Part shown: one piece after another, positions 538 to 18,480 of the stretch
Position numbering within the stretch: position 1 is the first letter of the stretch
Layout of the letters: each line of letters begins with the position of its first letter
Origin: Methanolobus sp.
GTDB taxonomy: Archaea > Halobacteriota > Methanosarcinia > Methanosarcinales > Methanosarcinaceae
NCBI GenBank assembly: GCA_030154025.1
Contig: JASKKT010000017.1
Coordinates: forward strand, 1 to 44,993
Length of the DNA stretch: 44,993 bases
Reading direction: 5' to 3'
Made by a program: the position numbers and the translations under genes
Notes under the pieces: model-generated
The model's input: the letters and a program-made list of their open reading frames with translations, nothing else
The model's database searches: none
Told to the model about the DNA's origin: nothing

Positions 538-2469
<1,932 letters not shown>

Positions 2470-2480
2470 GGTGAGGAAAA

Positions 2481-4994
2481 ATGGCAGACGATATAGACAA
2501 TGAAAATATTCAGAATAGCGGTTCACCTGACGAACCGGGAGATGAGACCTCCTTTGACATCCAGCCTACGGAAACAGGCGAAAGGATAGTGCCTGTTCTC
2601 ATTGAAGATGAGATGAGGAACTCATTCATCGATTACGCGATGAGTGTTATCGTGAGCCGTGCACTGCCCGATGCGAGGGACGGCCTCAAGCCCGTACACC
2701 GCAGGATACTGTACGCAATGAAGGAAGCAGGCATCACCCACGACAAGCCTTACAAGAAGTGTGCCCGTGTAGTGGGAGACGTGCTCGGTAAGTACCACCC
2801 CCACGGTGATACTGCGGTCTATGACTCCCTTGTGAGGATGGTGCAGGATTTCTCCCTGCGATATCCACTCATTGACGGGCAGGGTAACTTCGGTTCCATT
2901 GACGGTGATTCGGCAGCTGCCATGCGTTACACTGAAGCACGCATGGATAAGGTCGCGGATGAGATGCTCCTTGATATCGACAAGGAGACGGTGTCCACCC
3001 AGCCCAACTATGACGGTTCCCTTCAGGAGCCTGTTGTGCTTCCGGCAAAACTGCCGAACCTGCTTGTCAATGGCTCCACAGGTATAGCAGTGGGCATGGC
3101 CACAAACATGGCTCCCCATAACCTTAACGAGGTAATTGATGCAACACTGATGCAGATCGATAACCCGGATGTCAGCATAAACGAACTGATGAAGGTCATC
3201 AAGGGTCCGGATTTCCCCACGGGTGCTACTATCCTTGGTTCGCAGGGCATAAGGGATGCATATGAGACGGGGCGCGGCAGGATACAGCTTCGGGCTGTGG
3301 CCGAGATCGAGGAGATGAAGAAGGACAAGAATGCCATAATCGTCACAGAGATCCCTTACCAGGTCAACAAGGCCAAGCTCATAGAGAATATAGCAGAGCT
3401 TGTAAGGGAGAAGAAGATAATAGGCGTTTCCGACCTGCGTGATGAGTCTGACCGTGAGGGTATCCGTGTTGTTATCGAACTTACGCGGGGAACCAATCCC
3501 AATGTGGTCCTGAACCAGCTTTACAAGCACACGCAGATGCAGACAACCTTCGGTATCATCAACCTGGCCCTTGTGGACAATGTTCCGAGGGAGCTGGGCC
3601 TGAAGGACATGCTTCGCATCTACCTGGAGCACCGTATAGATGTCATCCAGAAACGCACGCTGTTCCAGCTCAGGAAGGCACAGGAGAGGGCCCACATCCT
3701 CAGGGGTCTCAAGATAGCCCTTGACCATCTGGATGCGGTCATAAGCCTCATCAGGTCTTCAAAGGATGTGGAAACCGCCAGGGTGGGTCTTATCAGTAAC
3801 TTCGGCCTGGACGAGATACAGGCAAAAGCCATTCTTGACATGCGCCTCCAGAAGCTGACAGGACTTGAAAGGCAGAAGATAGAGGACGAGTACAAAGAAC
3901 TCATAAAGCTTATTGCCGAACTGGAAGAGATCCTCAGTAGTGATGAAAAGAAATACAATATCATAAGGTCTGAGCTCCTCGACCTGAAGGAGCGTTTCGG
4001 CGATGAGAGAAGGACCAAGATAAAGGGGTCTGTTATTGAAATCGATACCGAGGACCTGATACCTGAGGAGGAGGTAGTTGTAACCATTACCAACAGTGGC
4101 TACATCAAGCGTCTTCCGGTGGACACTTATTCCCAGCAGCGCAGGGGTGGCAAGGGTATCATAGGTATGGATACCAAGGACGAGGACTTCGTGACAGACA
4201 TCTTCGTAGCCTCGACACATGACTATATTCTCTTCTTCACTACCAAGGGAAGGGTCTACTGGCAGAAGGTGTACGAGATACCCGAAGGCAGCAGGCAGTC
4301 CCGGGGCAAGGCCATAGTGAACCTGCTGGAACTGGGAGATGGTGAATCCGTCACAGCTATGATACCTGTGGACGAGTTCTCCGAGAACAGTTACCTGTTC
4401 ATGGCCACTCGCATGGGTACTGTCAAGAAGAGCCAGTTGTCCGATTTCAGCAATCCTCGCAAGGCAGGCATTATAGCATTGATACTTGATGATGGCGATG
4501 AGCTTGTGAACGTGGCACTCACAGACGGCTCAAAGGAAATGGTCATGGTCTCAAGACACGGTAAAGCTATCAGGTTCTCTGAAACCGACGTGCGCCCCAT
4601 GGGCAGAAGTGCAAGGGGTGTCCGCGGAATGAAACTGGAGCCCGGGGACCTGGTCGTCAGCCTGGATGTGGTGGATGAGACTGCATCGCTGCTCACTGTC
4701 ACTGAGAATGGCTTCGGTAAACGCACAGAGTTCTCCGAGTACCGTTCCATGCACAGAGGCGGGCAGGGCGTGATCACTATCGTGACCAGCCTGCGGAACG
4801 GTCCAGTGATCAATGTCAAGTCTGTCAAGGATAGCGATGAGATAATGCTCACAAGTTCCGAAGGTATTATTATCCGGATACCTGTAAAGGATATACGTGT
4901 CCAGGGCAGGAACACCCAGGGTGTCAAGATAATGGACGTGCGCCAGAACGATAAAGTGGTAGGTGTTGCGAGGATAAGGGCAGACGGGGAATAA
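2481..4994 (+). CDS. gyrA: DNA gyrase subunit A
   Basis: DNA-cleaving subunit of gyrase, 837 aa. The winged-helix domain holds the catalytic tyrosine (Tyr150 in [10 protein letters not shown]). A coiled coil with a leucine-rich [15 protein letters not shown] segment follows, then a C-terminal beta-pinwheel with a GyrA-box (QQRRGGKG, about residue 548). The pinwheel and box are what distinguish gyrase from topoisomerase IV. An acidic N-terminal extension of about 35 residues precedes the conserved core. The residue equivalent to E. coli Ser83 is Thr111, and the Asp87 equivalent is Asp115. GAGGTGAGG at 2468-2476 is a strong ribosome binding site for ATG 2481. It is co-transcribed with gyrB (11 bp gap). 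Confidence 0.97.
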
Positions 4995-17003: not shown

Positions 17004-18056
17004 TCAGACTTTTATTATCGTGCCTGCTGCCTTACGTATCCTGTTACTTACGGCTGCGCCGATGCCCAGGTGACTGAAAGAGCCGTCAACCAGTATCAGG
17101 TCCACACCTTTTGAATCCATATATCTCAGTCCCGAAAAGAGGTTAAGGGCGATCTCTCCTGGTCTGTCCTTGCTGCCAAGGGCAAGCTGGTCAGCATGCC
17201 TGATCATCTTATTGCTTTCATCCGTTAAAAGCAGTCCTATCCTGACTTGCCTGGAAGGGGAATTCCCAAGTAGTTCCTGTATCCTGCTGATGACCATTTC
17301 ATGTTCCCCTTCAATAAGTGTAACAGCTGCATCAGGGGCATAGTGCGTGTATTTCATTCCCGGGGAGCGCACAACGGTCGATTCGGGGTGGATCTTGTCT
17401 TCATATCCTATAATTACTGCCCCTATGACCTTCTCGATATCCTCGCGGCTGATCTCGCCGGGCCTTAGTATGGCAGGCACTGCCGGGGTCATGTCTACGA
17501 CCGTTGATTCCAGGCCTACCTTCACGCTCCCTCCGTCAATAACGGCATCTATCCGCCCTGAAAGGTCTTCGATGACATGCCGTGCATTGGTGGGACTTGG
17601 CTTGCCGGAGAGGTTGGCACTGGGCGCAGCAAGGGGCTTCCCGGATGCCCTGATAAGCCCGAGGGCTATTTCGTTGTCGGGCATTCTTAATGCCACAGTA
17701 TCCAGTCCGCCTGTTGTCACATCCGGTACGATCTCAGTCCTGTCCAGTATCAGTGTGAGGGGTCCGGACCAGAACTCATCCATGAGTGCAAAGGCTTTCT
17801 CGGGAATGTTCCTGGCGAGTTCTGAACACTGTTGCTTTGAAGCTACATGCACTATAAGAGGATTATCCGCAGGCCTGCCCTTTGCCTCGAATATTGCCTG
17901 CACAGCTTTTGCGTTCAGTGCATCGGCTCCCAGGCCATAGACCGTCTCTGTAGGGAAAGCCACCAGTCCCCCTCGTCTGATAATAGCTGCAGCTTCTTTC
18001 AGAGATGTCCTGTGGTCGTTTTCAGTGGCATGAAGTATGAGGGTTTTCGTAGTCAT
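17004..18056 (-). CDS. sua5: Threonylcarbamoyl-AMP synthase Sua5 (YrdC plus Sua5 domains)
   Basis: Makes threonylcarbamoyl-AMP from threonine, bicarbonate and ATP, the first step of t6A formation at tRNA position 37. The N-terminal YrdC domain includes GGLVAFPTETVYGLGADA, KGRPADNPLIVH and the PSANLSGKPSPT segment. The C-terminal Sua5 domain begins after the SPGMKYTHYAP linker and ends near SNRIRKAA. It has 350 aa, the long Sua5 form rather than TsaC. I placed the start at ATG 18056; in-frame codons up to 18152 overlap the promoter (TATA near 18124-18132) and read as non-conserved sequence. Confidence 0.94.
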   Translation of the reverse strand: MTTKTLILHATENDHRTSLKEAAAIIRRGGLVAFPTETVYGLGADALNAKAVQAIFEAKGRPADNPLIVHVASKQQCSELARNIPEKAFALMDEFWSGPLTLILDRTEIVPDVTTGGLDTVALRMPDNEIALGLIRASGKPLAAPSANLSGKPSPTNARHVIEDLSGRIDAVIDGGSVKVGLESTVVDMTPAVPAILRPGEISREDIEKVIGAVIIGYEDKIHPESTVVRSPGMKYTHYAPDAAVTLIEGEHEMVISRIQELLGNSPSRQVRIGLLLTDESNKMIRHADQLALGSKDRPGEIALNLFSGLRYMDSKGVDLILVDGSFSHLGIGAAVSNRIRKAAGTIIKV

Positions 18057-18123
18057 GGAAGAGTTCGTCTTGAAAACAGGTTTTATTCGGAACCAGTATG
18101 CACCGTCATGCAGATAAGTTTTT

Positions 18124-18134
18124 TGTATATATGG
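18124..18134 (-). promoter_or_regulatory. TATA box for sua5
   Basis: CCATATATACA on the minus strand predicts a start near 18103 and a leader of about 45 nt without a clear Shine-Dalgarno sequence. Confidence 0.45.
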
Positions 18135-18220
18135 TCCTGTTGCAACGTTCACGTATCAGGAGTACTTAATTGATACAGTGCCTCTTCCTTCATAATTTTC
18201 GATAAACCAAAATAGGAATA

Positions 18221-18229
18221 CTTATATAA
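18221..18229 (+). promoter_or_regulatory. TATA box driving the C-rich hairpin RNA
   Basis: CTTATATAA preceded by a purine-rich AATAGGAATA (BRE-like). The usual spacing puts the transcript start at about 18251, exactly at the base of the downstream hairpin. Confidence 0.5.
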
Positions 18230-18250
18230 GATAATGTCTTCTATGCACTA

Positions 18251-18367
18251 AGTGAGCGGGTCTGTTTTTAACCCCACTCCCACACTAACCCCCACTCCCC
18301 AACCCGCTCACAATCATTACAGGGAGTAAAGATGTGGGCCATGGATATTTTGGCTGTATCTCACTGA
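18251..18367 (+). ncRNA. Candidate leader or small RNA: 10-bp stem, C-rich loop, 11-codon ORF
   Basis: GTGAGCGGGT (18252-18261) pairs perfectly with ACCCGCTCAC (18302-18311). The 40-nt loop holds two copies of an AACCCC(C)ACTCCC unit. Downstream, GGGAG (18322-18326) precedes ATG 18332 by 5 nt, opening an 11-codon ORF (MWAMDILAVSH, stop 18365-18367). ACTCCC occurs twice in the loop and is the exact complement of GGGAGT at this ribosome binding site; CCCAC in the loop also complements GTGGG overlapping the start codon. The RNA could act in cis or as a trans-acting small RNA. Both are inferred. Confidence 0.45.
18272..18300 (-). other. Canonical G-quadruplex motif on the minus strand
   Basis: The minus strand reads G4-AGT-G5-TTAGTGT-G3-AGT-G4, four G-tracts with loops of 3, 7 and 3. 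It lies between the mrp operon end and the sua5 promoter, in the same interval as the C-rich loop. Confidence 0.6.
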
Positions 18368-18375
18368 TAGGATAT

Positions 18376-18392
18376 TATCGATACTATCGATA
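18376..18392. repeat. Tandem palindromic octamers TATCGATA
   Basis: TATCGATA occurs at 18376-18383 and 18385-18392, separated by one C. Each copy is a perfect palindrome. This could be a protein-binding site. Confidence 0.4.
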
Positions 18393-18443
18393 CATTACAT
18401 TCAGTGCATGTCATCAATGAACTGCAGTTTTGCTCAGTCGCTG

Positions 18444-18480
18444 TGCCTGCTGCATTAAACGGGTCAGCAGGCAGTAAAAA
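18444..18480 (-). terminator. 9-bp hairpin downstream of mrpG
   Basis: TGCCTGCTG/CAGCAGGCA (18444-18452 and 18465-18473) with a 12-nt loop lies 40 nt past the mrpG stop. A T5 run (minus, 18476-18480) comes before the stem and not after it, so it is not a standard terminator. It may instead protect the 3' end. Confidence 0.35.

Follow-up and report, generated by a model that had tools for sequence, protein, structure and literature searches.

A very likely freestanding small RNA gene of Methanolobus, member of an ancient multicopy hairpin family with a near-invariant C-rich loop

The comparative data suggest that a 60-nt hairpin in a Methanolobus sp. contig (JASKKT010000017.1; the window, i.e. 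the whole stretch of 44,993 nt that was analysed) marks an interval that is, very likely, the freestanding gene of an ancient, multicopy family of small non-coding RNAs. We suggest, as a reading that we give about an even chance, that this freestanding sRNA presents its loop on a stem to one common partner, likely a protein, and that a 3' G-tract has a tuning role in the paralogue found in the window. The near-ubiquity of the family in a class of archaea that make methane or oxidise it anaerobically, and its near-invariant loop, make it very likely an important RNA, and few archaeal sRNAs have known functions. Those Methanosarcina species that are genetically tractable have 3-4 copies, making functional work feasible, and such work might uncover a new archaeal regulator that binds RNA.

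The neighbours of the hairpin are all minus-strand genes: a Sua5/YrdC gene at 17004-18152, and mnhG and mnhF, which belong to an Mrp-type antiporter operon. The hairpin therefore lies between genes and is not followed directly by a gene in its own direction. The features that had been described by the first-pass annotation, i.e. a TATA box, a perfect stem, a 40-nt loop with two copies of ACTCCC, a GGGAGT, a GTGGG and a short ORF, were all located where it had placed them, and together with the elements recognised by comparison they are as follows.

18221-18229, plus strand: TATA box of the sRNA gene, CTTATATAA, kept in orthologues
18252-18311, plus strand: sRNA hairpin, covariance-model match G000:C15:18252-18311 (E 9e-12 in its own genome), nearly invariant within the genus
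18252-18261, plus strand: 5' arm of the perfect 10-bp stem, GTGAGCGGGT in DNA, GUGAGCGGGU as listed for the arm
18262-18301, plus strand: loop of 40 nt
18265-18269, plus strand: loop U-tract, a run of T on the 5' side of the C-rich motif, recurrent across aligned copies
18272-18281, plus strand: first C-rich unit, CCCCACUCCC (direct repeat D2), an extra unit of the window paralogue that is present in the orthologue group
18276-18281 and 18294-18299, plus strand: the two loop copies of ACTCCC
18283-18300, plus strand: core C-rich motif, CACUAACCCCCACUCCCC, which adjoins the 3' arm and is a near-invariant core class-wide
18302-18311, plus strand: 3' arm of the stem, ACCCGCTCAC in DNA, ACCCGCUCAC as listed for the arm, with compensatory changes
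18322-18327, plus strand: 3' G-tract, GGGAGU, with possible pairing to the loop ACUCCC and thus a possible pseudoknot
18332-18367, plus strand: 11-codon ATG ORF, judged to lie outside the conserved element
18334-18338, plus strand: GTGGG

By itself, a 10-bp hairpin is at chance level in the window, which holds three perfect 10-bp inverted repeats (loops up to 60 nt) versus 1-5 in 20 dinucleotide shuffles. The 60-nt hairpin folds far more stably than its own shuffles (z -5.1), and the 120-nt interval folds no better than shuffles (z -0.27). The hairpin rises above chance because it is conserved in relatives. In a first search, which compared a 281-base query with genomes of the same genus, the hairpin was found in 24/24 Methanolobus genomes with the stem, the loop and the TATA box kept and the remainder diverged, and shorter matches uncovered paralogues, both in the same genome and in other families of the order. 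A covariance model (R1) identified the element in 102/112 genomes of the taxonomic family, 175/186 of the order and 224/238 of the class, and in 149 of the 151 good genomes of the class. With a refined model (R2), 106 of 391 genomes of the phylum were matched, every one inside the class, and no match was obtained outside the class in this phylum-wide sample. The RNA family spans the class of Methanolobus, Methanosarcina and ANME-2, probably with Methanothrix-like archaea included; the taxonomic family f7, which belongs to a different order, is probably Methanothrix-like. In the class search, the element was not found in two small-genome genera (g16 and g18) or in family f6. The few lineages that lack the RNA are small-genome ones and are useful for tracing a co-lost protein partner.

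The number of copies per carrying genome ranges from 1 to 24, with three in the genome to which the window belongs (covariance-model search). The maximum of up to 24 copies, the weakest of which are near the score limit, is found in one genome of a genus resembling Methanoperedens (G180, loci L224-L253). In several genomes tandem copies are 120-180 nt apart (L213, L214, L041). The high copy number and the tandem copies suggest dosage by duplication.

In 89/180 distinct copies the centre of the TATA box is 24-30 nt away from the stem on its 5' side, with a second peak at 32-34 nt. This spacing is as expected for transcription that begins at the base of the stem or immediately before it, which puts the predicted start at 18251-18252 in the window; with the TATA-to-stem spacing conserved, the proposal of the first-pass annotation that a promoter-linked hairpin transcript starts at the base of the stem is upheld for the predicted transcript. 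The copies are standalone and intergenic, and for most of the 123 copies examined the downstream neighbour gene is on the opposite strand; no conserved ORF or gene on the same strand follows just downstream, as it would for a cis-acting leader or an upstream-ORF attenuator. A shared gene neighbour was sought across genera and none is common to all, neighbours varying from genus to genus, and the flanking sequence past the hairpin also varies among copies. There is weak enrichment for a terminator signal: 71% have TTTT within 60 nt, versus 54% of shuffles. In total, the element has its own promoter, a position outside genes and leaders and compensatory stem changes, as is expected of a freestanding sRNA.

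These stem changes were scored in 97 distinct sequences aligned to fit the model structure, in which 94.9% of the stem cells are paired and double changes are found in 8/10 pairs, a number reached in 0/500 shuffles; a first alignment, built without the model, gives the same stem result. Doubly changed stem cells in the 97 sequences amount to 104 versus 26 in shuffles, and slid controls collapse. In three copies (L055, L062, L065) quite different stems enclose the same loop. The comparison supports that the stem, 9-14 bp long, is selected for pairing and not for sequence. Conservation and covariation had been named as a check on the element, and the outcome is that the stem covaries and that the hairpin and the TATA box recur across the genus.

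The loop consists of a U-tract followed by the core CACUAACCCCCACUCCCC near the 3' arm, and the core is near-invariant over the class. Some loops have extra C-rich units, giving 1-6 C-tracts per loop, and about four types can be told apart in Methanosarcina. In one orthologue (L020, G008:C1:1702716-1702874) the loop motif CACTAACCCCCACTCCCA has undergone an 18-nt tandem duplication, a recent growth in the number of C-tracts.

That the motif stays near-identical among paralogues across the class speaks for a single partner shared by all copies, and because base pairing is unsupported, as detailed below, this partner would most likely be a protein. We suggest that (i) the stem seals the 5' end and would display the loop as a single-stranded ligand, (ii) a single partner, most probably an RNA-binding protein reading spaced C-tracts, would bind all copies, (iii) the copies would be interchangeable, with copy number and C-tract count setting the dose, and (iv) in the window paralogue the conserved 3' G-tract would pair with a C-rich unit and could in that way close or tune the loop. 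The U-tract is perhaps a site for an Sm-like protein. More tentatively, and with a probability somewhat short of even, the family may constitute an ancient, class-defining ribonucleoprotein RNA in which redundant hairpins offer a C-tract loop as the ligand of a dedicated putative protein and in which one paralogue is gated by a 3' G-tract pseudoknot. Known RNAs resemble parts of such a design: CsrB and RsmZ are protein-sequestering RNAs with redundant copies or motif repeats in loops, and Y RNAs have a terminal stem and a large pyrimidine-rich loop. The hairpin family is similar to the former in its loop-presented repeats and redundant copies, as it combines a repeated identical loop motif (1-6 C-tracts) with redundant gene copies (1-24) in the way of a CsrB/RsmZ-like sponge, and to the latter in shape; it differs from both in its motif and in that the protein partner is putative here, and the resemblance is no more than a lead. 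The 9-nt motif is not enriched elsewhere, in a test that a short site such as CCCC would escape.

Alternatively, the RNA could be a trans-acting antisense sRNA in which the C-rich loop is a seed that blocks initiation on a limited number of mRNAs by pairing with their G-rich ribosome binding sites, in the manner of Methanosarcina mazei sRNA41 or of bacterial C-rich-loop sRNAs, a model that we consider unlikely on balance. In the bacterial sRNAs, such as sX13 of Xanthomonas and the RsaE-type RNAs of Staphylococcus, a C-rich single-stranded loop is carried on a stem and C-rich motifs are redundant. The stem-presented C-rich loop and the redundant motifs are shared with the archaeal family, which differs in domain of life and sequence and in that its pairing to start regions is no better than that of shuffled loops. 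In favour of the antisense model, the C-rich loop is single-stranded, GGGAG is frequent in Methanolobus start regions (27/298 versus 2 in controls), and masking of ribosome binding sites is known for methanoarchaeal sRNAs (PMC5867862, PMC6560208). In the pairing test the measure was the mean energy difference (kcal/mol; start regions minus internal controls), and the test is rough, as the rule used to choose starts is simple and biased towards Shine-Dalgarno words; the loops scored -0.83 and -1.06 on the 298 Methanolobus start regions versus -0.84 +/- 0.25 and -0.85 +/- 0.38 for shuffled loops, while the 16S anti-Shine-Dalgarno control was clearly specific (-1.10 versus -0.02 +/- 0.32). One Methanosarcina loop type displayed a weak tendency in this rough test (-1.20 versus -0.64 +/- 0.35 for shuffles), which speaks for the model. 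Given that the Methanolobus loops are no better than shuffled ones and that CCTCC is nearly absent, occurring in 4/180 loops, a general anti-Shine-Dalgarno action was rejected. Of the earlier suggestion that the loop could act in trans on other GGGAG sites, the action in trans stands as a possibility, and a general action on GGGAG ribosome binding sites does not, there being no gain over shuffled loops.

Sites elsewhere in the genome also argue against an antisense function. The perfect complement GGGAGTGGG is not enriched in the window's own genome, with 16 sites versus 23 in the reversed control; five of the sites are the hairpins themselves and the remaining 11 are not at starts. Moreover, a single motif is common to all paralogues, unlike what diversified targets would lead one to expect. 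Ribosomal RNA was rejected as a pairing partner: on a stretch of a Methanosarcina genome with the 16S rRNA, used because no rRNA is detectable in the window's assembly, most shuffled loops match equally well.

A second alternative is that the element functions at the level of DNA, either as a REP-like or MITE-like dispersed repeat or as a former of a G-quadruplex on the opposite strand. It is intergenic and multicopy, one genome having as many as 24 copies, and its minus strand has four G-runs, as this alternative would have it. A DNA-level function accounts poorly for the TATA box at a fixed spacing and for the different stems that enclose a constant loop with compensatory changes, and within the genus the orthologous positions are retained, unlike those of recent mobile repeats. 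We therefore regard it as improbable.

The window paralogue stands out by its 3' G-tract. In 25 of 28 informative orthologues a GGGAG, GGGG or GGGAA follows the stem at a distance of 6-14 nt (16 nt in one), versus 6/149 other copies; the 28 orthologues are related and so do not amount to 28 independent events. Those with the G-tract include related genera. The longest complement between tail and loop averages 5.9 nt versus 4.9 in shuffled tails, and 4.5 versus 4.5 in other copies. The complementarity of the G-tract to the loop, as claimed originally, is in this way borne out for this paralogue, and a pseudoknot or a loop-gating tail would be the simplest reading of it. Because any G-tract is complementary to a C-rich loop, the pairing of tail and loop could also be incidental. 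In the first-pass annotation GGGAGT was the ribosome binding site of the 11-codon ORF, and the loop, by covering it and the start codon, was to mask initiation in cis. The loop complementarity in the window and the conserved G-tract of this paralogue fit such a cis control. The matching ATG and 11-codon ORF after GGGAG, by contrast, are limited to the window species and its closest relative; in most orthologues that place lacks a start codon, and the other paralogues have neither the G-tract nor the ORF. As the ORF is not conserved, neither the role of GGGAGT as its ribosome binding site nor the masking in cis holds up, and we judge cis control to be very improbable. The least credible alternative, which can practically be set aside, is a small leaderless protein whose GTG start would coincide with the transcription start and whose frame would run through the hairpin: the window does have a 25-codon open frame, but a leaderless-frame test across copies indicates that the hairpin is not coding, given orthologue lengths of 60, 61, 62 and 63 nt that shift the frame, a stop inside the hairpin in 105/156 copies having a start, and the compensatory stem changes.

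The favoured RNA, with its loop presented to a common partner, appears to be undescribed as a family, consistent with the initial impression that no such element was known. Rfam 15 gave no match over the window, nor at 18150-18450 with E up to 1, and at eight other loci of the family it matched nothing except a neighbouring tRNA. The M. mazei literature reports sRNA41, sRNA154 and sRNA162 and hundreds of unnamed sRNAs (PMC5867862, PMC6560208), and in M. psychrophilus nine conserved cold-induced sRNAs are reported (PMC5378194), which are similar to the hairpin RNA in being conserved sRNAs of the same genus. None of the published methanoarchaeal sRNAs is described as this hairpin family, the comparison being one of descriptions and not of sequence tables, and single family members may already be listed as published transcripts. 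A literature search on the motif letters and on C-rich archaeal sRNAs gave nothing relevant, and those passages of Weinberg et al. 2010 that deal with archaea do not describe this hairpin. Among the nearest likenesses are sRNA41 and sRNA154 of M. mazei, anti-ribosome-binding-site sRNAs whose genes are intergenic and belong to the same archaeal family, and for which the loop or a single-stranded part has been proposed to act in trans (PMC5867862). The present loops show no preference for the ACDS start regions, which are the known targets of sRNA41 and rank from about the 5th to the 90th percentile of the background; on this basis, an indirect one that involves targets and not sequence, identity with sRNA41 was rejected. 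sRNA154 is described as an RNA with two stem-loops that is conserved in Methanosarcina (PMC5867862), whereas the family described here is a class-wide, multicopy single hairpin.

Two contigs from viral collections were also matched. A 17-base match to the loop core at L186:12305-12363, on a GC-rich contig, has no promoter or proper stem and was judged to be due to chance. L187:2053-2109 (IMG/VR UViG_3300037264_009246) is a genuine hairpin copy on a contig catalogued as viral, with the 3' end of a tyrosine-recombinase-like gene (2121-3512, minus strand) at a distance of 12 nt; it may be that an integrating archaeal element uses the sRNA gene as its attachment site.
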